From Desulfonatronovibrio magnus (GTDB taxonomy: Bacteria > Desulfobacterota > Desulfovibrionia > Desulfovibrionales > Desulfonatronovibrionaceae), in contig NZ_KN882187.1 of assembly GCF_000934755.1 (NCBI RefSeq), positions 12,525 to 53,956 of the forward strand: a DNA stretch of 41,432 bases. Reading direction: 5' to 3'. Position numbers and translations under genes: made by a program. The notes beneath the pieces are model-generated. The model saw nothing but the letters and a program-made list of their open reading frames with translations, was not told where the DNA came from and did no database searches. This document shows, one piece after another, positions 4,381 to 38,211 of the stretch. The number at the start of each line of letters is the position of its first letter. Within the stretch, counting starts at the first letter, position 1.

Positions 4381-5319
4381 ATGGAAGCTTCTCTTATCGC
4401 TATTTTAGTTTTAGCTGTTTTTGCTGTAGTGGTCATAGTAAAGTCAGCTGTAGTCATTCCTCAGAAGAGTGAGTATATTGTCGAGCGTCTCGGAAAATAC
4501 AGCAGAACTCTTGGAGCTGGTTTTCATATTCTGATTCCCTTTCTGGATAAGGTAGCTTACAGATATTCCACCAAGGAAGAGGTCTTTGATATCCCCAGTC
4601 AGACATGTATTACCAAAGACAATGTAACAGTTGAAGTTGACGGATTGATTTATCTCCAGGTTGTTGACAGCAAATTATCCGCATACGGCATCAACGATTA
4701 CCTTGTAGCTGCCTCGCAACTGGCTCAGACCACACTTCGTTCCTGTGTGGGCCGTATTGATCTGGACAAGACTTTTGAGGAACGCGAAACCATCAATATG
4801 CAGGTTGTGGAATCCATTGATCAGGCTGCCCAGGCCTGGGGTGTAAAAGTGCTGAGGTATGAGGTTAAAGATATTGTACCTCCGGAGTCAGTTAAAAAGG
4901 CTATGGAGGCCCAAATGACTGCAGAACGTGAGAAGAGGGCGGAAATTGCACGCTCTGAGGGTGACAGGCAGTCTACAATCAACCGGGCTGAGGGAGATCG
5001 TCAGGATGCTATTCTGCGCTCTGAAGGTGAGAAACAAAAAGTAATTAATGAAGCACAGGGAGAGGCTGAAGCAATTCTGGCTGTTGCCCGGGCTACTGCA
5101 GAAAGTCTCGCCCTTATAGCCGAGCAGCTGAAAGCACCCGGAGGTCAGGATGCAGCAAGTCTGCGGGTAGCAGAACAGTATGTTGGTGAATTTGGAAGGC
5201 TGGCAAAAGAGTCAAACACCCTGGTTATCCCTGGCAATATTGCAGATTTGGCCAGCATGGTAACGGCAGCCATGACTTCTTTGCAGAAGGTTACACTAAA
5301 GACTAATCCGGGCAGTTGA
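4381..5319 (+). CDS. qmcA: SPFH/Band 7 membrane protein (stomatin / QmcA type)
   Basis: A 312-residue stomatin-like protein. It begins with one N-terminal membrane segment (residues ~4-27), then the SPFH/Band 7 domain (VIPQKSEYIVERLGKYSRTL, GFHILIPFLDKV, SRTL-type signatures, and the ending YEVKDIVPPESV) to about residue 170. A long charged coiled region follows with repeats of the type RAEGDRQ, SEGDRQ and SEGEKQ. Such proteins oligomerise into rings on membranes. It has a GGAG RBS, follows nfeD by 12 bases and overlaps the next small gene at TGATG, so the three genes form one operon. Confidence 0.92.
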   Translation: MEASLIAILVLAVFAVVVIVKSAVVIPQKSEYIVERLGKYSRTLGAGFHILIPFLDKVAYRYSTKEEVFDIPSQTCITKDNVTVEVDGLIYLQVVDSKLSAYGINDYLVAASQLAQTTLRSCVGRIDLDKTFEERETINMQVVESIDQAAQAWGVKVLRYEVKDIVPPESVKKAMEAQMTAEREKRAEIARSEGDRQSTINRAEGDRQDAILRSEGEKQKVINEAQGEAEAILAVARATAESLALIAEQLKAPGGQDAASLRVAEQYVGEFGRLAKESNTLVIPGNIADLASMVTAAMTSLQKVTLKTNPGS

Positions 5320-10545: not shown

Positions 10546-10627
10546 TGGTACTGAGTACCCAGCCAGCATTTATTCACTGAGAAAAAATCCATTGCTTCCT
10601 TGCTTGGGGCTGAGTATAACAGGCAGG

Positions 10628-10646
10628 TATGACAAAAGTGGTCATA
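10628..10646. promoter_or_regulatory. Operator-like palindrome TATGAC-N7-GTCATA (site A)
   Basis: Perfect 6-base arms with spacer AAAAGTG, 51 bases before the MNT start. The context CAGGCAGG before it and ATTAA after it are shared with sites D and E. An extended TTGGGG 18 bases upstream of TATGAC could be a -35, placing the left arm over a -10-like hexamer. Confidence 0.6.
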
Positions 10647-10696
10647 TTAATTTTTTTTGGAGAATTATTGTTCAAAACTTTTAGACTGGGGTTTTG

Positions 10697-11074
10697 ATGG
10701 ATATTATCAGTTCCTCCGACATGGAGATTTACCGGCAATCCGCCAGAAAAAGACTGCTGGCTGTCCAGGAAAGCAGGCGCATCCGGCATGAACACGCCTG
10801 GGATGTGGCTCGCAGGGCTGCATCTCTGTTAAGAGAGCACTTTGCAGCTTCTCGTGTTGTAGTGTTCGGTTCCCTGTTACGTCCGGAGGTATTTGATGAA
10901 CGTTCTGACGTGGATATGGCGGTCTGGGGAGTGGCAGATGAAAAGTACCTCCGGGCGGTGGCCGCAGTAACCGCCCTGGACAAAGAAATCAGTCTGGACC
11001 TGATCAAGATGGAGCCAGGACTTCAGAGCAATGTTGCCATCAGCAGTCAGATAGAAGCGGGAGTGGAGATATGA
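10697..11074 (+). CDS. mntA: MNT nucleotidyltransferase-domain antitoxin
   Basis: 125 residues from the ATG (the TTG three bases before is in frame but redundant). The first ~45 residues are helical; then comes the minimal nucleotidyltransferase (MNT) domain with VVVFGSLLRPEVFDERSDVDMAVWG, i.e. the GS...DxD signature of polymerase-beta-type nucleotidyltransferases (~residues 55-78). In characterised MNT/HEPN pairs the MNT protein neutralises the HEPN RNase, in at least one case by AMPylating it. The partner HEPN gene overlaps its stop (ATGA). A decayed second copy lies at 23359. Expression probably depends on the palindrome at 10628-10646. Confidence 0.85.
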   Translation: MDIISSSDMEIYRQSARKRLLAVQESRRIRHEHAWDVARRAASLLREHFAASRVVVFGSLLRPEVFDERSDVDMAVWGVADEKYLRAVAAVTALDKEISLDLIKMEPGLQSNVAISSQIEAGVEI

Positions 11075-11565
11075 AGTTAGAGATCGGCCCTTACCAGGCC
11101 CTGGCGGGACGATTGGAAATGAGGATACAGGATGTGGGCCGAGTGGTGCAGAGGGTTTCCCTTTTAATGAAAAAGGCTGAAGAAACCGCTGATGATGGCT
11201 ACCTGGACGGAGTGGCCCTCAATCTACACAGCTTTTATACCGGGATGGAATCATGCTTTGAGGAGATTGCCCGCACAATTGATGGGGCTTTACCTTCCGG
11301 ATCCAATTGGCATCAGGAATTGCTTCAGCAGATGTCCGCCGACTTGAGGGAGTTGCGTCCTGCGGTTATCAGGCGCAGCACCAGAGATTGCTTAGACGAG
11401 TACCGGGCTTTTCGCCATCTGGTCAGAAACGTCTACACTTTCAACCTCAAGCCGGAAAGGCTGAAATATCTTGCTTCAGATGCAGGGACATGTTTTGAAG
11501 ACTGCAAGCAGGATATAGAGAGCTTTTTAAACTTTCTACGAGCTTTATCTCAACAATCTGATTAG
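11071..11565 (+). CDS. hepT: HEPN-domain RNase toxin (HepT-like)
   Basis: 164 residues, all-alpha. The C-terminal EYRAFRHLVRNVYTF (~residues 110-124) corresponds to the R-x4-6-H type HEPN motif of HepT-like ribonucleases; the RH..RN.Y form is usual for this subgroup. The N-terminal part has LNLHSFYTGMESCFEEIA, typical of HEPN partners of MNT antitoxins. The ATG overlaps the mntA stop, so the pair is translationally coupled. This is the only intact copy in the window; the second copy is cut after 54 codons at 23892. Confidence 0.85.
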   Translation: MKLEIGPYQALAGRLEMRIQDVGRVVQRVSLLMKKAEETADDGYLDGVALNLHSFYTGMESCFEEIARTIDGALPSGSNWHQELLQQMSADLRELRPAVIRRSTRDCLDEYRAFRHLVRNVYTFNLKPERLKYLASDAGTCFEDCKQDIESFLNFLRALSQQSD

Positions 11566-11609
11566 CAGCTTGCAAGTATCACTACAGCGACCCTTTATTG
11601 AAACTGAAA

Positions 11610-11681
11610 GGGGACTGACTCTTTTGCTGCCGTGTAGTCCGGCTGTTTTGTGGTTTGAGGTCGGCAAAAGTGCCTGTCCCC
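11610..11681. repeat. Inverted repeat with GGGGAC/GTCCCC ends, copy 1
   Basis: Arms GGGGACTGACTCTTTTGC and GCAAAAGTGCCTGTCCCC, separated by ~36 bases. A related element with the same outer arms but different inner stem sits at 25564-25647. Both are just beyond the 3' end of a PUA-like gene copy, so they could serve as terminators or be part of the duplicated locus. Confidence 0.65.
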
Positions 11682-11752
11682 AGTGGCCGATGACGCTCCG
11701 CATGAGCGACTGGCAATGAAGCTTAGCGTATGTCATTCCCCAGTTGATGTGG

Positions 11753-12073
11753 TTATGTGCTTATTTCAAGGTATGTTTTCAACTCTTTTGCTAAATTTTC
11801 AGCCTCATCTTTTGTGAGATATGGAACCTTGATTGTCCGAGCCCAGAAAAAACTCTTTCCTGTAATTTCACAGACCTTCCCAAACGGCATAGCCCTTATA
11901 GCTTGTCCTTTCTTTGGAACTGATATGATGAATTCAACATCCCGATACGAAGTTGCGTCGTCCGGTGACTTTATGCTTCCATTCTTAACTCGGCCGGCAG
12001 CGACAAGACCTGTCCATCTGTGTGAAAAGAAAACGATATCACCGGGGTAAACGTATTCTACAAACCGTTTCAA
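11753..12073 (-). pseudogene. Truncated C-terminal copy of the PD-(D/E)XK/PUA-like gene
   Basis: About 105 codons nearly identical to the last third of the gene at 25674-26687 (RFVEYVYPGDIVFFSHRWTG ... KVPYLTKDEAE). Identity ends abruptly at KRF, and the sequence upstream is unrelated A/T-rich DNA with no in-frame ATG or RBS; only a TTG opens the frame. It therefore encodes at best the isolated PUA-like domain and is most simply a remnant. It sits just after the intact mntA-hepT pair, whereas in the other locus the pair is decayed and this gene is intact. Confidence 0.85.
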
Positions 12074-23039: not shown

Positions 23040-23124
23040 TTGGGTATTGTTACTCCCAGCCAGCATTTATTCACTGAGAAAAAATCCACTGCTACCTTGC
23101 TTGGGGCTGAGTATAACAGGCAGG

Positions 23125-23143
23125 TATGACAAAAGTGGTCATA
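23125..23143. promoter_or_regulatory. Operator-like palindrome TATGAC-N7-GTCATA (site D)
   Basis: Copy of site A in the duplicated locus, identical in arms and spacer (AAAAGTG). It is now separated from the mntA remnant by the inserted element. Confidence 0.6.
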
Positions 23144-23172
23144 TTAATAATTTTTTTTGGAGAATTATTGCT

Positions 23173-23342
23173 CAAAACTTTGTATCTATTCACCACATTT
23201 GCTATAAAACTATTAAAATACCCTGGATTCCGGCTTTCGCCGGAATGACGAAAAAGGGCAACTATTTGCTCTAACCGTCACCCCGGACTTGATCCGGGGT
23301 CCAGGTCTTCTTATTGATCTTGCTGAACAGTTACAAAACTTT
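23173..23342. repeat. Inserted REP-pair element flanked by 9-bp direct repeats
   Basis: Compared with copy 1 of the locus, ~161 bases are added here. They are bounded by CAAAACTTT at 23173-23181 and again at 23334-23342, while copy 1 has this word once. The inserted DNA carries two opposed hairpins at 23222-23305 (ATTCCGGCTTTCGCCGGAAT and CCCCGGACTTGATCCGGGG), with outer arms CCTGGA/TCCAGG. Confidence 0.8.
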
Positions 23343-23358
23343 TTAGACTGGGGTTTTG

Positions 23359-23734
23359 ATGGATATTATCAGTTCCTCCGACATGGAGATTTACCGGCAA
23401 TCCGCCAGAAAAAGGCTGCAGGCTGTCCGGGAAAGCAGGCGCATCCGGCATGAACACGCCTGGGATGTGGCTCGCAGGGCTGCATCCCTGCTAAAAGAGC
23501 ACTTTGCAGCTTCTCGTGTTGTAGTGTTCGGTTCCCTGTTACGTCCGGAGGTGTTTGATGAACGTTGACGTGGATACGGCGGTCTGGGGAGTGACAGTTG
23601 AAGAGTACCTCCGGGCGGTGGCCGCAGTAACCGCCCTGGACAAAGAAATCAGTCTGGACCTGATCAAGATGGAGCCAGGACTTCAGAGCAATGTTGCCAT
23701 CAGCAGTCAGATAGAAGCGGGAGTGGAGATATGA
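23359..23734 (+). pseudogene. Frameshifted MNT antitoxin (mntA copy 2)
   Basis: Near-identical to the gene at 10697-11074 until the nucleotidyltransferase signature, where two bases are missing (GAACGTTGACG against GAACGTTCTGACG). The frame then stops at once (GAACGTTGA), 69 codons in, before the DxD pair. Downstream sequence stays very close to copy 1 up to the normal stop. It cannot encode an active MNT domain. The same promoter palindrome is present, but the REP-pair insertion lies between it and the start. Confidence 0.92.
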
Positions 23735-23892
23735 AGTTAGAGATCGGCCCTTACCAAGCCCTGCCGGGACGATTGGAAATGAGGATACAGGATGTGGGCC
23801 GAGTGGTGCAGAGGGTTTCCCTTTTAATGAAAAAGGCTGAAGAAACCGCTGATGATGGCTACCTGGACGGAGTGGCCCTCAATCTACACAGC
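23731..23892 (+). pseudogene. Truncated HEPN toxin (hepT copy 2)
   Basis: The first 54 codons of the HEPN gene are kept, with one visible change (LPGR for LAGR). Identity ends after NLHS, upstream of the catalytic RH..RN motif. The following DNA belongs to an unrelated gene on the other strand, whose stop codon now lies inside this remnant. Confidence 0.9.
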
Positions 23893-24297
23893 ATGCCCAG
23901 GTAATTCCTTAATGAGGATTCTGTCTTTGGTAACAACAAAACTTACATCCACGATATCTTCATATTTCTTGTGACCGCCGTAATATGTTGCTCTGCACAT
24001 CAGCTCTATCGACTGGTCTACCGATTTAAGGCTTTCTTTAAAGCCTACCGCCGCTGATTTTACCAGTTGTGCGACTTCTTGATTCTCTCTATCGCTTTCT
24101 TCTCTTTTTACCTTCTCTGTAATATGAAACGCTATTAAGCCTGTTGCTATGGAGACAAAGATTATGAAAACGAGTGTTAACTCGCTGGAACTACCCATGC
24201 CAATTGAATTGACTAATAGTATCAAGACGACGCATCCCACTGCACATCCGGTAGCGCATGGAGTACTCGAGGGATCTTTGTCCATTTTTTTCGTCAT
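23884..24297 (-). CDS. Small two-segment membrane protein in cassette position
   Basis: 137 residues; after a Cys-rich start (TPCATGCAVGCVVLILLV) come two hydrophobic segments (~residues 18-33 and 40-57), then a charged helix (EKVKREESDRENQEVAQ) and a soluble C-terminus. No family recognised. It lies 41 bases downstream (minus strand) of an attC site, as expected for the first gene of the next integron cassette. Its last codons and stop fall in the hepT remnant, so the natural 3' end and the cassette's own attC have probably been lost in the rearrangement. Confidence 0.55.
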   Translation of the reverse strand: MTKKMDKDPSSTPCATGCAVGCVVLILLVNSIGMGSSSELTLVFIIFVSIATGLIAFHITEKVKREESDRENQEVAQLVKSAAVGFKESLKSVDQSIELMCRATYYGGHKKYEDIVDVSFVVTKDRILIKELPGHAV

Positions 24298-24337
24298 ATC
24301 TCAGGTTCTTTTTAGCTGCGTGCTTCGGGTTACATTC

Positions 24338-24438
24338 CCATAACGCCGCAGATGAGCGGAATTGAGGGACGGGCGCGGGGCTTGCGCAAGCAAGACCCGT
24401 GAACGGCCCTCAATTTCCGCTCGATCTGCTTGTTCGGC
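24338..24438 (-). other. attC recombination site of an integron gene cassette
   Basis: On the minus strand, GCCGAAC opens and GTTATGG closes a 101-base imperfect palindrome. Just inside them, GCAGATCGAGCGGAAATTGAGGG pairs with its counterpart except for two unpaired bases (C and A) on one arm, the extrahelical bases typical of attC. A central hairpin (CTTGC/GCAAG) forms the variable part. The closing core GTT starts the next cassette. The opening GCCGAAC is the exact complement of GTTCGGC at 25451-25445, the start of this cassette, which is the classical cassette hallmark. Confidence 0.85.
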
Positions 24439-25190
24439 GATTTTCTGATTTCGGAAGGCTTTGAAGATGCCTTTTGATCATTTCAATTCCTGCGTTTTTT
24501 GAAGATTCTACTTCTTTGCTGTCATCAACAACAGCATTCCACGATAGCCCTCGATCTTTAGGAGTTGTTGACAAATCGGTTTGAGCGATTCTATTATCCT
24601 TCAAGAACGGGAGAATGATTCCAGCCAACTTCACAATGTCTGTCTGAGTTTTTGCTTGTTCATATCCATCCTCACTAGATCCAAATCCGCTTTCTAGCTT
24701 TATTTCTATGAAAATCGCTTGCTTGCCTGATGTTATCATTACATCGGGTTTCGCATTGCAAAGCCACCGGCATCGAAATAGTTTTTTTTCAAGAATGTTC
24801 TCTGTAGTTTCAATTTCCTGGATTCCATTCTTGGCCCATTTGCCGGGGAACCACAATTTGGATTTCTTGATTGTTCCTGTCCAAAACATTCCATACTGGT
24901 CAATAAGATCGGGATTCAGATTCATGCAGGAAAAAAGTTCTCTCAAGAACGAAATTCGGCTGTTATGGGTTTCATCTGAATAAACTGCTTGGTCACCAAA
25001 AAGAGAACCAATAGTCGCGAAATAGCGCGACTTCAGCATATAGATTGAAATCCTGAGGGTCCAAGCTTATGCCCGTAACATCTTTGATCCTAGAAAAGGT
25101 CTTTGAGCGGAAATTCAAATCTCCCAAAATTAGCGTCTGAAAAAGAAATCCGAAGTGCCTTTCTTCTCTGTTCAAATTATAGAATTCCAT
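24410..25190 (-). pseudogene. Frameshifted PD-(D/E)XK-like cassette gene
   Basis: Two overlapping frames form one gene. The first (ATG 25190, behind TTGAGGATTG) reads MEFYNLNREERHFGFLFQ to LYAEVALFRDYWFS and stops; the second continues with LFGDQAVYSDETHNSRISFL to the end. The shift is near a run of T at ~25000. The nuclease core is in the second part: KPDVMITSGKQAIFIEIK, an Asp followed by E-I-K. The C-terminal RRTSRSSGN is encoded by the attC site itself, as often seen in cassettes. One base change would restore it, so it may be a recent mutation or a sequencing error. Confidence 0.65.
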
Positions 25191-25198
25191 TTCAATCC

Positions 25199-25423
25199 TC
25201 AACTTTGGCGCAAAACCTCATCGAGCTCCGGACTGATATTTGTCACACCAATTGAACCAAATCTATTCTTGAAGAAAGTCAGTTGTCCCGGTTGGTATAA
25301 AGCAACAATGTCAAAGTTGACCTCTTCTGACCTAATTTTTGGCTCTAGATTCCCGAGGGTAAACATTTCACCAGTTGTTTGCTTCTGAAAATCATCTTCA
25401 AAAAGAATCATGAGTCTCTTCAT
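25199..25423 (-). CDS. Small cassette protein of unknown function (74 aa)
   Basis: The AAAAGGAG ribosome site and ATG follow the cassette start GTTCGGC by ~20 bases, the normal layout in integron cassettes. The protein (MKRLMILFEDDFQ, VALYQPGQLTFFKNRFG) is not recognised. The next gene starts 9 bases after its stop, so the two are probably one unit, perhaps a small partner or immunity protein of the nuclease-like gene; that pairing is inferred only from position. Confidence 0.6.
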   Translation of the reverse strand: MKRLMILFEDDFQKQTTGEMFTLGNLEPKIRSEEVNFDIVALYQPGQLTFFKNRFGSIGVTNISPELDEVLRQS

Positions 25424-25444
25424 TTGTTTCTCCTTTTCATTTTC

Positions 25445-25451
25445 GCCGAAC
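25445..25451 (-). other. Cassette start (GTTCGGC core site)
   Basis: On the minus strand, GTTCGGC marks the upstream edge of the cassette; its complement GCCGAAC begins the attC at 24438. The flank upstream (25452-25560) shows no palindrome, so this may be a secondary insertion site rather than a junction between two cassettes. Confidence 0.7.
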
Positions 25452-25563
25452 CAGTTGTTACAAAGTTTCTATATATCATTCCAGCCGACATGATATACAT
25501 GATTTAAGTTCATTGAAGACTACGTGCATGTTCTGACAGAAGTCCAAAACTGCCAATTTTGAA

Positions 25564-25647
25564 CGGGGACTGGCTCTCCCAGCCCTTGATTTATTAAGTC
25601 TGTGTTTTACATCAACAACAAAACAAGGGCTGGGGTGCCTGTCCCCT
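25564..25647. repeat. Inverted repeat with GGGGAC/GTCCCC ends, copy 2
   Basis: Outer arms CGGGGACTGGCTC and GGGTGCCTGTCCCC with inner arms CCCAGCCCTTG and CAAGGGCTGGG. Same family as 11610-11681, again just beyond the 3' end of the PUA-like gene, where it could act as a terminator. Confidence 0.65.
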
Positions 25648-25673
25648 GCTTTCCTTAGAAAAGGGCTAAACTA

Positions 25674-26687
25674 TCACCTTATTTCAAGGTATATATTCAA
25701 CTCTTTTGCTAAATATTCAGCCTCATCTTTTGTGAGATATGGAACCTTAATTGTCCGAGCCCAGAAAAAACTCTTTCCTGTAATTTCAGAGACCTTCCCA
25801 AACGGCATAGCCTTTATAGTTTGTCCTTTCCTTGGAACTGATGTGATGAATTCAACATCCCGATACGAAGTTGCGTCGTCCGGTGACTTTATGCTTCCAT
25901 TCTTAACTCGGCCGGCAGCGACAAGACCTGTCCATCTGTGTGAAAAGAAAACGATATCACCGGGGTAAACGTATTCAACAAACCGTTTCGCACCCCCAAA
26001 GGCAGCCACCCGATTATTTTCCATCATGTACCAAATTGCATCCTCGTCCCAGCTCCTGTTGGTATCGAACAATACTCCCTTTACATGACCAGGATTAATA
26101 TGGCGATCATAAGGTAAGGTGAAAAACTCGAAATATTTCTCATCATTTATTTCATAAATTCTATACGGAAGAAACTTGATTGAAATGCCTTGATGTTTCC
26201 AGTAATCAACAGCATTGATCAGGTTATCGTCAGCGGCACTGCCAATTATGATCAGATGTTGTTTTTTGTTCAGTTCCTTTGCATCTAAGGGCTGCTCAAG
26301 CTTGAATGCCTCCTTATGCGCCAGGGGCAAGTCGCTGCTACTGTTGGAGTACTGGTTGAATTTTTGCTGAAGTGTAGAAAGCGTCCATTGTCCTGCATCT
26401 TGCGCATATCGCAAAGATTGATTAACTGCTCCTTCGCCTGCCGTACCCGTCTTTAATTCAAAAATAATGAGCTCACCTTTTTTGTTTAATGCGTAAATAG
26501 CAGCTTGATATTGTCGTTCCTGGAAAATCGGCATTAAGCCGCCATCTTCAAAAAGAACATCCAGAATGCTCTCGGCAATGAGCTCTTCCAGGTCTTTTTC
26601 TAAACTACCAAAGCTTGAAAAATCCTTGAATGCTACCGGGTCTATTCTGTCGAACTTGCCGTGGGTTGATCGTAGTTTGTATAGCAT
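25674..26687 (-). CDS. PD-(D/E)XK-like / PUA-like fusion protein
   Basis: 337 residues behind AAGGAGAAG. N-terminal ~110: a NucS/restriction-type fold with LEELIAES (~33-40) and AIYALNKKGELIIFELKTG (~63-81); E-L-K is kept, but the Asp expected in the preceding strand is Ala/Asn here, so activity is uncertain. C-terminal ~105: YVYPGDIVFFSHRWTGLVAAG, a PUA/EVE/ASCH-like beta-barrel pattern; these domains often read modified bases or RNA. A nuclease fused to such a reader suggests a modification-dependent restriction enzyme, by analogy with EVE- and SRA-type systems; this is inference. A truncated copy of the C-terminal domain is at 11753. Confidence 0.65.
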   Translation of the reverse strand: MLYKLRSTHGKFDRIDPVAFKDFSSFGSLEKDLEELIAESILDVLFEDGGLMPIFQERQYQAAIYALNKKGELIIFELKTGTAGEGAVNQSLRYAQDAGQWTLSTLQQKFNQYSNSSSDLPLAHKEAFKLEQPLDAKELNKKQHLIIIGSAADDNLINAVDYWKHQGISIKFLPYRIYEINDEKYFEFFTLPYDRHINPGHVKGVLFDTNRSWDEDAIWYMMENNRVAAFGGAKRFVEYVYPGDIVFFSHRWTGLVAAGRVKNGSIKSPDDATSYRDVEFITSVPRKGQTIKAMPFGKVSEITGKSFFWARTIKVPYLTKDEAEYLAKELNIYLEIR

Positions 26688-26803: not shown

Positions 26804-26912
26804 GTTCCCAGGCTCCAGCCTGGGGACGTTTTTTTCTTGCGGCTCCAGCCGCTTCTTCAAAATGTGGCTGGAGCCACAAAAAAGTGGTGTCCCCAGGCTG
26901 GAGCGTGGGAAC
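26804..26912. repeat. Nested palindromic element with 24-bp terminal arms
   Basis: Outer arms 26804-26827 and 26889-26912 are inverted copies with one mismatch (starting GTTCCCAGGCTCCAGCCTGG). Inside are two more hairpins, GCGGCTCCAGCCGC and GTGGCTGGAGCCAC. Non-coding; MITE-like. Confidence 0.8.
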
Positions 26913-26925
26913 AAGAAAAAAACTG

Positions 26926-27012
26926 GATTCCGTCCTTCGCCGGAATGATGGCAAAAAGTAATAGTTTGCTTTAACCGTCACCCCGGACTTGATCCGGGGT
27001 CCAGTTTTTTTG
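26926..27012. repeat. REP-pair element, copy 3
   Basis: Opposed hairpins ATTCCGTCCTTCGCCGGAAT and CCCCGGACTTGATCCGGGG, with outer arms AAAAAAACTGGA and TCCAGTTTTTTT. It lies between the PUA-like gene and the 3' end of pnkp. Confidence 0.85.
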
Positions 27013-27101
27013 AAGTTGCTTGTCATAAATAAAGTCAATGAATTTAACCATACCTTGCCTGGCCCGAGAGACATGCTGACCAGTATGAACTCAAGGGTTG
27101 C

Positions 27102-31511: not shown

Positions 31512-33002
31512 ATGATCACAGACAATCAAGTGAGGAAACTTATGAAGCTTTTAGGACAGGGGAAGACAATGGAGCAGGCATCGGCAAAGTGTGGCATGGA
31601 TGTAAAGAGTGCCCGTAAGTATAGGGATCTGGACAAACAGCCAAGTGAATTGCAGGCTGAAAGGAAACGGGACTGGCGTACCCGCAGTGATCCATTTATC
31701 AAGGAGTGGCCAATAGTCACAGCGTTTTTAGAGATCAATCCTGGTCTTGAAGCAAAGACTTTGTTTGAGCACTTACAAAGGCAGTATCCTGGTCGTTTTT
31801 CAGATGGCCAGCTTCGGACCTTTCAGAGAAAGATCAAGGGATGGCGGGCAACAGAAGGTCCAGCCAAGGAGGTGTATTTTCCTCAGGTTCACAAGCCAGG
31901 TCAACTGAGCCAGTCTGACTTCACTCATATGGGCGAGCTTGAAGTGACCATTGCTGGCCTGCCCTTTGACCATTTGATATACCATTTTGTTTTGACTTAT
32001 TCCAATTGGGAAGCAGGCATGGTCTGCTTTTCTGAAAGCTTTGAGAGCTTAAGTGAAGGGTTACAGCAGGCTTTACAAAAACTTGGTGGAGTCCCGGAAG
32101 CTCACCAGACAGACAGATTGTCTACGGCAGTGAACAAACCAGGGAACATGGAAGAATTCACAAGTCGTTACCAGGGGCTTTTATCGCACTATGGCCTTAC
32201 AGGTCGTAAAATTCAGGCAGCAAGCCCCAATGAAAATGGAGATATAGAGCAAAGGCATCATCGCTTTAAAAGGGCTGTGGATCAGGCCCTGATGCTGCGT
32301 GGCAACCGGGATTTTTCTTCGCGTAAAGAATACGATATTTTTCTAGAAAATTTGTTTATGCAGTTAAACCGCAATCGGCAGCAAAGATTCCAGGAGGAGC
32401 AAAGACTTTTACGTCCTCTGCCGGGCAAAGCATTACCATCGTGCAGCAAATTTACAGTTGTTGTCGGTCCGAGCAGCACCATAAGGATTAAGAAGAACGT
32501 GTATTCAGTTCATAGTCGTCTTATCGGTGAGCAAGTGGTAGTCCGTCTTTACGCAGAATACCTTGAGGTCTGGTATGGACAGAGGTTTATTGAGCAGATT
32601 CCTCGACTGCGTGGCGCAAGCAAGTCCCGCATTCAATACAGACACATAATTGACTGGCTGGTCCGCAAACCTGGAGCTTTTGCAAACTACCGCTACCATA
32701 GCGATCTGTTCCCAACGAGCCGTTTTAGGATGGCCTATGATGACCTGAAGAAAGTCCATGCTCTTTCCAAGGCTGCCAAGGAATACTTACAGATTTTAAA
32801 ACTTGCGGCTAAAGAAAACGAATTGGCGGTGGACGATGCTCTTCGTTATCTATACGAGCAAGGTCAACCAGTGTCCGCAGATACTGTCAAGAGCATTGTA
32901 TCTTCCGGCCAAAAGCCTCAACCGATAACTGATGTTGAAATTTCAGAAATTATTTTAGGTTCTTACGATCTTCTTCTGGATGCCCAGGAGGTGACACAAT
33001 GA
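31512..33002 (+). CDS. istA: IS21 transposase IstA
   Basis: 496 residues behind AGGAGGCAAAGG. The N-terminal helix-turn-helix reads MITDNQVRKLMKLLGQGKTM and SAKCGMDVKSARKYRDL. The DDE integrase core has QLSQSDFTHMGEL (first Asp), HQTDRLSTA (second Asp) and ASPNENGDIEQRHHRFK (Glu). The C-terminal part is the usual IstA beta-rich region. Full length for the family; no frameshift. The stop overlaps the istB start (ATGA), coupling translation. Confidence 0.95.
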   Translation: MITDNQVRKLMKLLGQGKTMEQASAKCGMDVKSARKYRDLDKQPSELQAERKRDWRTRSDPFIKEWPIVTAFLEINPGLEAKTLFEHLQRQYPGRFSDGQLRTFQRKIKGWRATEGPAKEVYFPQVHKPGQLSQSDFTHMGELEVTIAGLPFDHLIYHFVLTYSNWEAGMVCFSESFESLSEGLQQALQKLGGVPEAHQTDRLSTAVNKPGNMEEFTSRYQGLLSHYGLTGRKIQAASPNENGDIEQRHHRFKRAVDQALMLRGNRDFSSRKEYDIFLENLFMQLNRNRQQRFQEEQRLLRPLPGKALPSCSKFTVVVGPSSTIRIKKNVYSVHSRLIGEQVVVRLYAEYLEVWYGQRFIEQIPRLRGASKSRIQYRHIIDWLVRKPGAFANYRYHSDLFPTSRFRMAYDDLKKVHALSKAAKEYLQILKLAAKENELAVDDALRYLYEQGQPVSADTVKSIVSSGQKPQPITDVEISEIILGSYDLLLDAQEVTQ

Positions 33003-33757
33003 TAGAGCAAAAACACAGCACCCTTTCCGGCTATCTAAAAGATCTGTATCTGCCGTCTTTCCGCCAGAATTATCGTGGAGAAGCAGATTTGGCCCGTCAG
33101 GAATCTCTGGATCATGAGGAATATCTGCTTGAGCTAGCCAGAAAAGAGTCTGAAGGACGGGCACTCAAGCGAACCCAGAGATATCTTCGGGAGTCCAAGT
33201 TGCCAAATGAGAAGACTTGGGAAATGTTCGACCGGGAACGTTTGCCTGTCAAGGTAAACAGTCTGGTGCAAAATTTATTGGAAGGGTCTTTTGTTGGCCG
33301 CTTTGAAAATGTCCTGGCTTTTGGCAACCCGGGAAGTGGCAAGACCCATCTGCTTTGCGCTATCGGGCATGAGCTGATCCAGCAAGGACGCCGAGTATTG
33401 TATGCACCCTGCAGCCTTCTGGTTCAGGACCTGCTGGTTGCCAAGCGGGAACTTAGCCTGGCCAAACAACTGAAGAAGCTTTCCAGGTATCATGCATTGA
33501 TCATTGATGACATAGGATATGTTCAACAAGACCGGGAGGAAATGGAGGTTCTGTTTACCCTGCTTGCTGATCGCTACGAGCGTGGTACGGTCATGCTCAC
33601 GAGCAATCTGCCTTTTTCGAGATGGGAACAGATTTTCAAGGACCCTATGACTACGGCCGCAGCCATTGACCGGCTGGTTCATCACTGCATTATCCTGGAA
33701 CTTAATTTGCCAAGCTACCGTTTGGAAAAGTCCCGAGAGAAACGGGAAAAAGGGTGA
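32999..33757 (+). CDS. istB: IS21 helper ATPase IstB
   Basis: 252 residues of the DnaC-like AAA+ family that assists IstA. Walker A is FGNPGSGKTHLLCAIG (~106-121), Walker B HALIIDDIGYVQQD (~165-178), then sensor-like LTSNLPFSRWEQIF and the arginine-containing AAAIDRLVHHCIIL. The N-terminal basic helical domain (YLRESKLPNEKTWEMFD) is typical. The gene overlaps istA by 4 bases. Confidence 0.95.
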   Translation: MIEQKHSTLSGYLKDLYLPSFRQNYRGEADLARQESLDHEEYLLELARKESEGRALKRTQRYLRESKLPNEKTWEMFDRERLPVKVNSLVQNLLEGSFVGRFENVLAFGNPGSGKTHLLCAIGHELIQQGRRVLYAPCSLLVQDLLVAKRELSLAKQLKKLSRYHALIIDDIGYVQQDREEMEVLFTLLADRYERGTVMLTSNLPFSRWEQIFKDPMTTAAAIDRLVHHCIILELNLPSYRLEKSREKREKG

Positions 33758-36314: not shown

Positions 36315-36400
36315 CAAGAGTAGTGCCGACAAAACAAGCCAGAAATAAGATAGCATTTTGAAATAACAGAGAATTTCGCTTAAACATGCGGAAACTGGGG

Positions 36401-36931
36401 TTAGCGTTTTGGTTTGTACTGACTTATTATACTATTTAATATAGGGAGTCTACCTTGTGACTTATAGTAGCAACAAAGAAGGTATGTCTCTATTATCTCA
36501 GGTGGGAAATGTTCGTTTTCTGATTTTATTGGTATTGCGTAAACATTAAAATCGCCCATAGATATGACAGTATCAATAGGAGTTCCTATGACATTAGGAT
36601 CATTTGTCCATCGATGGTTCTTGAATTTTGGATCCCCTTTTTTCAATTCTTTACTATCATTTGCAATATTTTTCCAAATCCTTCCTCGTATTGATCCTAT
36701 AGTTTTACCTATATACCAAATTTCATTCATGTTTTCTGTTAGTGGAATGTTCCAGTCTGTTTCTTTACACTCGGAATAGATATATATTCCGCATTGGTAA
36801 TTTAACTCATAAAAAATATCTTCTCCTCGAAGAGGATTCCAAGGATCGCTATATGTAGCTTTTAATTTTATTTTTGAACCAAATAAATTATTGTATGTCT
36901 TTAAACATTCATCAATATCTTTAACGACCAT
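36401..36931 (-). CDS. GIY-YIG nuclease-like cassette protein
   Basis: 176 residues. CGIYIYSECK (GIY at ~48-50) and IWYIGKTIGSIRGRIW (YIG at ~73-75, followed by arginines), with a later EIIETYLLCCYY glutamate, match the GIY-YIG endonuclease layout, with a longer spacer between GIY and YIG than usual. The DNA is A/T-rich. The AGAAGGAG site and ATG come ~20 bases after GTTAGTG (36957-36951, minus strand), the closing core of an attC. Its stop lies in CGCTAAC, a near complement of GTTAGTG. It therefore looks like the gene of one integron cassette. Confidence 0.6.
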   Translation of the reverse strand: MVVKDIDECLKTYNNLFGSKIKLKATYSDPWNPLRGEDIFYELNYQCGIYIYSECKETDWNIPLTENMNEIWYIGKTIGSIRGRIWKNIANDSKELKKGDPKFKNHRWTNDPNVIGTPIDTVISMGDFNVYAIPIKSENEHFPPEIIETYLLCCYYKSQGRLPILNSIISQYKPKR

Positions 36932-36950
36932 ATATTATCTCCTTCTTTCT

Positions 36951-37091
36951 CACTAACGCCAAGCCTTAGCGGAGTGCGCCTTTGGCCAGTCCGCTAAGGG
37001 CGCATGTTTAAGGATAGAGATCGACCATGTCCATTCGGGCAAAGCGCCAACAATCATGGCTGATGGTCGACTTTATCCTTCTTGATTAGGC
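36951..37091 (-). other. attC-like site between two cassette genes
   Basis: On the minus strand it opens with GCCTAATC at the stop of the upstream gene (near complement of that cassette's start GTTAGGC) and closes with GTTAGTG. The inner 62 bases (36951-37012) are a good attC: AAC, six unpaired bases, stem CCTTAGCGGA, loop, TCCGCTAAGG, six unpaired bases, GTT. A second hairpin with AAGGATA/TATCCTT arms fills the rest. Total 141 bases, the upper limit reported for attC, or two sites fused. Confidence 0.65.
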
Positions 37092-38153
37092 TATGGCCTG
37101 TACAATGCACCCTATTGTACTTTCGAGTTGGTCAGCGACCTTCTTGATATCGCTTACTTCTTTTAAAAAGCCAAAATCAAATTCAAATAGAACATAAGTG
37201 CTCTGTTTGTAATGACGAGGAAACACGTTGACGAACGAAGGCCATACCACTTTATTGAGGCATCGCCAAACTGCATCGCGTACTGCCTGATCGAGTTGAT
37301 CATCATCCAATTTTAAATTTAAATTAAAATCCTCATTAATTTCCAAGTAAAAAGAGTTGCTGTTGATATTAAATATGCTTTTCCCAAGATGAGGTTTGCT
37401 TGAATCCCACATTTCCAGAAAATTGAGAACGGAATCATGCACAGGTGGAGACATACGAGGAACAGGGTATAATGAAACCTTTCCAAATTTCTTTGTTCTT
37501 TCAGACTCGTTCCATTCCGATGCTAAAGACGAAAATACAGGGAACGCTAGTTCTGGAGCACAGAATACAAATCGATTATTTGGAAAGTCGTTTTCACCAT
37601 GAAATGCAAGATATTTTTCTCGAAAAACTGAAAATTGCCGCAATAGCGAAAATGCATTTATTCGCTTATCACGCTCGATGCGCATAAAATGAATCCACTC
37701 TTGATATTCTTTTTTCCTTGGCAAATTGTATTTTAACGAATTCTCAACCAAATCTATCATTACATTTAGGCCGATATGCCTAAATCGCCCAGATCCTGCT
37801 CCTGCTTTGTATGGCTTTGTATAAAATTCCGATGTGCCGTAAGTAATAAATAGAAACTCTTTTTGCTCTTTCAAATAATGCAGAGATTCCGAAGTGGTAA
37901 CTATTCGGTTTGTTTGCCAATCCTGATTCCATCTTCCACTTTCATCTGAATCTACCTTAGTTTCTACTACAACTGAAAGATTCTCGAAAGTAAGCTCAAT
38001 GTCGAATGGTTTACGGCGCTGCGCATGTTCAAGGTTACCAAGAGGCGGAGTGCCGAAAGCACTTTCTACCACATCGAGTTTCCCTATACCATCCAGGTCT
38101 TCAACAAGCCATACTAACAACCAATCATGTGTTTGCTCATTTTTATAATTCAT
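37086..38153 (-). CDS. PD-(D/E)XK nuclease family cassette protein
   Basis: 355 residues. The core reads KPFDIELTFENLSVVVETKVDS (~48-69): Asp, then E-T-K at the end of the next strand, as in PD-(D/E)XK nucleases of the PDDEXK_4-like group. The rest (YQEWIHFMRIERDKRINAF, FVFCAPELAFPVF) matches no domain I can name. The start follows GTTAGGCGAAGAAGGAATATTCG, i.e. an attC core site followed at once by the RBS. The stop overlaps the next attC-like site. A stand-alone anti-phage or restriction-like role is possible but unproven. Confidence 0.7.
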   Translation of the reverse strand: MNYKNEQTHDWLLVWLVEDLDGIGKLDVVESAFGTPPLGNLEHAQRRKPFDIELTFENLSVVVETKVDSDESGRWNQDWQTNRIVTTSESLHYLKEQKEFLFITYGTSEFYTKPYKAGAGSGRFRHIGLNVMIDLVENSLKYNLPRKKEYQEWIHFMRIERDKRINAFSLLRQFSVFREKYLAFHGENDFPNNRFVFCAPELAFPVFSSLASEWNESERTKKFGKVSLYPVPRMSPPVHDSVLNFLEMWDSSKPHLGKSIFNINSNSFYLEINEDFNLNLKLDDDQLDQAVRDAVWRCLNKVVWPSFVNVFPRHYKQSTYVLFEFDFGFLKEVSDIKKVADQLESTIGCIVQAIA

Positions 38154-38169
38154 CGAATATTCCTTCTTC

Positions 38170-38211
38170 GCCTAACAATGTTACCGAGATTTAGATAACA
38201 TTTTAAATGGC
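38170..38211 (-). other. Short attC-like hairpin
   Basis: On the minus strand GCCATTTAA, stem AATGTTA, 12-base loop, stem TAACATT, then GTTAGGC. The closing core is canonical, the opening one degenerate, and the total (42 bases) is below the usual attC size, so it is either a shortened or a decayed site. Confidence 0.5.

Follow-up and report, generated by a model that had tools for sequence, protein, structure and literature searches.

A probable decayed chromosomal integron fragment with one complete gene cassette in Desulfonatronovibrio magnus

Introduction

A long palindrome trailing two small genes raises the question of whether this part of the Desulfonatronovibrio magnus chromosome carries an integron gene cassette and, if so, how the cassette came to lie there. 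The original prediction answered the first part in the affirmative, describing an integron-type cassette with a textbook attC and no integrase in sight. The window considered here, 41,432 nucleotides in length, belongs to a 54-kb contig (C126) of a draft genome of 134 contigs, and its features are collected in Table 1. Judged by an SPFH-type protein, a Desulfonatronovibrio MAG (97%) is the closest relative with a name. The minus-strand region from 25554 to 23893 is very probably a degraded chromosomal integron fragment, in which an attI-like site is followed by one complete cassette, closed by an attC, and by the beginning of another. It is of a known kind and needs no new mechanism, the one unusual point of the locus being a repeated attI-like block; the genome has several such remnants in different places, and this one appears to be real but unremarkable. 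No paper naming both Desulfonatronovibrio and integron was found in a literature search, and the locus adds a clear case of integron decay in Desulfovibrionales.

Table 1. Features of the cassette locus and of related parts of the window (window positions)
Feature	Position	Strand	Remarks
attC	24338..24438	-	R'' GCCGAAC ... R' GTTATGG, 101 bases; attC model and folding
Start core GTTCGGC of the cassette	25445..25451	-	exact complement of R'' GCCGAAC
attI-like block, about 67 nt	25449..25515	-	ends at core GTT; relatives on C34 and C70
Part (39 nt) of a dispersed repeat, about 70 bp in full	25516..25554	-	outer part of the stretch matching C34
ORF1, 74 aa	25199..25423	-	first cassette; no family match
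5' part of the second cassette gene	24993..25190	-	ATG behind GAGG; open to stop at 24993
209-aa ORF	24410..25039	-	PD...EIK motif, by eye
Start core GTTATGG of the next cassette	24338..24344	-	sequence
137-aa ORF of the next cassette	23884..24297	-	last codons enter HEPN remnant at 23892
First MNT/HEPN pair (HepT-like_2)	10694..11565	+	Pfam; intact; reference locus without cassettes
Second MNT/HEPN pair	23356..23892	+	nucleotidyltransferase frameshifted; HEPN cut after CTACACAGC
Second attC, CTTAAAC ... GTTAGTG	36951..37012	-	model R1, 22.3 bits, E 0.0012; nearly symmetric, strand uncertain
176-aa ORF	36401..36931	-	start core GTTAGTG, AGGAG, ATG; no Pfam family
Core-like GTTAGGC	38170..38176	-	before RBS and ATG of 355-aa ORF 37086-38153

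The attC site and the start of its cassette

Sequence and folding bear out the minus-strand palindrome with its opening and closing motifs, as well as the two extrahelical bases that had been placed on one of its arms: on the opening arm, the C at position 16 and one of the three A at 23-25 have no partner. Read on the bottom strand, these unpaired bases are G and T, 7 to 9 positions apart. Two such bases of attC sites, a G in L'' and, 6 to 8 nt away from it, a T, are called "particularly conserved" in PMC2727003, and the focal site has this pair (unpaired C16 and one of A23-25 in top-strand terms). The segment 24330-24445 was folded as single-stranded DNA in its inserted form. Its bottom (plus) strand folds better, at -40.8 kcal/mol (z -8.2), than its top (minus) strand, at -32.9 kcal/mol (z -5.9), and for neither strand did any of 200 shuffles fold as well. 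In the minimum-energy folds, GCCG pairs with the CGGC beside R' and leaves AAC and GTT unpaired, so that the R box is not formed in these folds.

For an independent search, a covariance model (R1) was constructed from 11 attC sites at five loci around integrases of related genomes, none of them from D. magnus; the sites were chosen from a stem-and-core scan and by eye, and the model is our own build, not that of IntegronFinder. R1 matches the focal site on the minus strand at 21.9 bits (E 0.0015 for the contig searched, E-values being rough by the tool's own statement), and up to E 10 only this site and 36951-37012 were reported on the contig. The model does not ring everywhere, as no match up to E 1 was seen at four other integrase loci (L031, L032, L034 and L035). 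The expected attC model match was obtained, with a modest score; the minimum-energy folds speak against a textbook picture of the site. A search of the window against Rfam gave no family at its gathering score.

An inserted cassette carries its own R' at its start. The motif GTTCGGC at the upstream end of the unit is, as predicted, the exact complement of GCCGAAC; it occurs as a single copy in the 1500 nt upstream of the attC (0.04 expected) and is followed by GAAAATGAAAAGGAGAAACAAATG, containing the ribosome-binding site (RBS) and the ATG. The proposed arrangement of core, RBS and ATG for each unit is clear in this first one; in the second, the ATG stands 40 nt past the core with a weak RBS. 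As a chance control, hairpins of the AAC...GTT type with a stem score of at least 14 were sought, and the window contains three, each of which has its 7-mer complement no more than 1500 nt upstream. Besides the focal site, these are the plus-strand reading of 36951-37012 and, at 26906-27021, the palindrome of a dispersed repeat, which passes the crude stem-plus-core filter and was counted as a false positive. In 60 dinucleotide shuffles of the window, the mean was 0.07 such hairpins, none with a complement.

Further attC sites in the genome

The anticipated additional attC sites are present on several contigs, some of them weak. In all, at least 15 attC matches reaching 18.9 bits were obtained, spread over 8 contigs. 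The whole-genome search, in which 150 of 745 candidates were scored, did not report three sites (the focal one, 36951-37012 and C8:68436) that the same model finds at loci given directly, so the count is not a full census. The best sites of the genome reach 40-42 bits, compared with 21.9 for the focal one. Several matches are weak: at genome scale, C72:1045 has an E-value of 0.19 and the partial match C73:3961 one of 0.62, and the match on C26 opens with GAC instead of AAC. Beyond this genome, attC matches were obtained under strict filters in 24 of the 41 Desulfovibrionales genomes examined, its own included.

Fourteen sites were taken into the core test, with C70 left out, and six of them have an exact complementary core upstream followed by a gene (0.04 to 0.12 expected for each): the focal site, C73:3551, C73:5451, C34:10313, C8:68436 and C72:1045. 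Judged by eye, the cargo is arsenite-methyltransferase-like at C73:3551, HNH-like at C34:10313, a toxin-antitoxin-like pair at C8:68436 and ParDE-like at C72:1045. The other eight have no convincing core, two showing matches taken as chance and six none.

Integrase pieces

The search of the draft genome with the integron-integrase family TIGR02249 resulted in 28 matches, none over the family cut-off and none on this contig, which agrees with the predicted lack of an integrase. A complete integron would have an intact intI; here, pieces only were found in a draft of 134 contigs, in which an intact gene could be missed. The best of these pieces, a 141-aa frame on C8, covers model positions of about 153-280 with 137.5 bits (cut-off 265), positions 281-313 lying in a separate frame. 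C72 and C73 carry N-terminal pieces whose ends are alike and which fall below the cut-off; the piece on C73 is divergent from an attI-like site followed by a core, a gene and the matching attC. A recombinase beside an IS91 transposase (C8:66712-67509) was also considered as the integrase and rejected, having 181.9 bits versus 265 and a match that skips model positions 182-239. Fourteen control genomes gave integrase-family matches at a similar level, none over the cut-off, and 9 of 150 related genomes have an integrase match at E 1e-60 or better.

The focal unit is an integron cassette: the attC model match, the exact core complement and the other attC matches and integrase pieces of the genome together uphold this part of the original prediction. 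The draft genome yielded no integrase gene in intact form, so that the cassette has probably been left stranded, in a displaced and decayed fragment that is probably immobile at present.

The attI-like block

Upstream of the cassette, a block ending at the GTT of the core has two clear relatives in the genome, and only these two, at C34:11214-11283 (87%) and C70:4847-4900 (81%). In a BLAST comparison of the cassette region with the fetched genome stretches, C34 matched outward from the core GTT for 106 nt at 85% and then ended; the alignment with C70 ends at GTT in one comparison and some nucleotides beyond the core in another. The three blocks lead into distinct cores, namely GTTCGGC at the focal locus, GTTAGCT and GTTATGC. 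The cassette behind the C34 block is complete, closed by AGCTAAC. On C70, no R'' matches the core GTTATGC, nor does the next attC (25.9 bits), and a short inverted-repeat element breaks up the block. This element, around 4847-5060 on the minus strand of C70, has inverted ends and apparently a short target duplication.

No copy of the block adjoins an integrase, so its putative identity as attI derives from its repetition and position. A second kind of attI-like site, in two copies, stands on C73 beside the N-terminal integrase piece and resembles the 67-nt block loosely, best near the core. The surroundings, C73:2014-5527, form an integron remnant of their own. Apart from the truncated intI, it holds an attI-like site, an arsenite-methyltransferase-like cassette and another copy of the attI-like site, which has a cassette to itself. 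It seems rather unlikely that copies of the block of about 67 nt have spread over the chromosome and provide, or once provided, separate cassette landing sites for a trans-acting integrase, the integron being scattered instead of forming one array; the three related blocks with distinct cores do permit the testing of several landing sites on one chromosome. The dispersed repeat adjoining the focal block is bounded roughly by GAAGACT and AGTCTTC; with 40 of 108 candidates scored, the 40 listed matches put it at no fewer than 21 other places.

Cargo of the cassettes

The cargo had been described as a PD-(D/E)XK-like protein with a 74-residue partner. The 74-aa ORF is present, and its comparison was with family libraries only; the nuclease frame looks frameshifted and not like an intact gene. 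The 209-aa frame overlaps the 25190-24993 frame from 25039 onwards, its own ATG has no clear ribosome site, and the two frames probably represent one gene, with its start at 25190, that has suffered a frameshift. The PD-(D/E)XK-like label comes from a motif read by eye and is therefore putative: no match was found in Pfam or NCBIfam, the best in PADLOC had only E 0.045, and structure prediction from the single sequence gave a mean pLDDT of 31.8.

Searches for relatives of this main cassette protein found none in 149 relatives, in plasmids or in phages, nor in another 394 genome slots from the phylum, which partly repeat the same genomes. Scans of the species genome collection and of viral contigs, which need an exact shared peptide, gave none either. 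At the DNA level, the focal attC has no second copy in its own genome and a single weak 39-nt match, in one of the 149 relatives. With the protein found in none of these 149, the relatives gave no sign of an ordinary conserved locus.

Downstream of the next cassette's 137-aa ORF, neither a matching R'' nor an attC was found. The protein has no match in plasmids and a single weak one in the 149 relatives, where 74 aa align at 36% within a frame of 765 codons. Outside the cassette, the 337-aa neighbour at 25674-26687 matches a candidate defence family (PDC-S11, E 6e-18), and a putative defence role of the cassette is possible.

Origin of the locus

A single locus is present twice, at 10558-12071 and at 23055-25989; the two align with gaps, and 23330-23892 is 97% identical to 10670-11232. 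At this point the copies part: 23893-25677 in the second occupies the place of 11233-11759 in the first, and the cassette block stands in place of the 3' part of the HEPN gene, where the second cassette is also cut off. The 137-aa ORF ends inside the HEPN remnant with no attC after it, which suggests that some process not involving the integrase relocated or shortened the block. The duplicated locus has, in addition, an EVE/NucS-like gene (EVE by eye), and each copy is broken differently.

The probable sequence of events begins with an integron-integrase that would have acted on the bottom strand of attC in its folded form and joined the cassette circle to attI at the G/TT point of the core. 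The block would later have been brought by other recombination into the duplicated MNT/HEPN locus, and the 3' end of the HEPN gene and the tail of the second cassette would have been lost with this relocation.

This history has to be weighed against another, in which a trans-acting integron-integrase inserted a single cassette at a non-attI site (attG-type) and the 137-aa ORF is no cassette. Such insertions are in print, as mentioned in parts of PMC12901181 and PMC12444791, and the locus has one complete cassette only and no integrase nearby; however, the sequence upstream of the cassette has two relatives in the genome, the three leading into distinct cores, and unselected targets would not be related, which makes this origin improbable.

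Less credible still is a reading of the palindrome as a transcription terminator or REP/MITE-type repeat whose core match arose by chance. The genome is indeed rich in palindromic repeats, several of them nearby, that at 26906-27021 passes the crude filter, and the R box is absent from the minimum-energy fold. Against this, a DNA search finds no other genome copy of the focal site, the attC model matches it, its unpaired bottom-strand G and T stand in the expected places, and the exact core complement lies 1 kb upstream. The degraded chromosomal integron fragment draws together the model match, the core complementarity, the repeated block, the broken integrase pieces and the junctions of the duplicated locus.

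Relation to known systems

With a sedentary chromosomal integron cassette, the focal unit shares the order of core, RBS, gene and attC, the complementarity of core and R'' and the unpaired bottom-strand G and T; it differs in that no working integrase was found in the genome and the main gene is probably frameshifted. The original prediction also invoked the term CALIN. The attC has no integrase nearby (none of the 28 TIGR02249 matches is on C126), but the IntegronFinder 2.0 default, as given in PMC9024848, needs at least two attC. The focal locus has one, the next being 12.5 kb away, so each of the two attC of the window counts by this default as a single orphan attC and not as a CALIN.

As described in the relevant sections of PMC12444791, decayed Xanthomonas integrons have an inactivated intI, remaining cassettes and attC clusters away from the platform. 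The inactivated integrase, the leftover cassettes and the attC lying off the platform are shared here; relative to what those sections describe, the difference is the repeated attI-like block that accompanies cassettes at three loci. In the Delta-attI cassettes of class 1 and 2 integrons, treated in part of PMC12901181, a partial attI replaces attC downstream of the gene; that work also mentions cassettes preceded by a partial attI, which cannot be excised. Both cases have additional attI sequence beside cassettes; here, the block is upstream and attC is present.

The second attC of the window

Read on the minus strand, the second attC has no complementary core within 1500 nt. It is flanked on both sides by cassette-like genes (36401-38153), and the attC-like site at the far end of the 355-aa ORF opens with CTTAAAC and not with GCCTAAC, the match to the core-like GTTAGGC. 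A dispersed palindrome, also present on C8, adjoins this attC at about 37013-37085, and minus-strand sequence near 36385-36412 resembles a deleted attC. Elsewhere in the window, 31512-33757 holds an IS21-type transposase pair, formed by an rve/Mu C-terminal protein and IstB.
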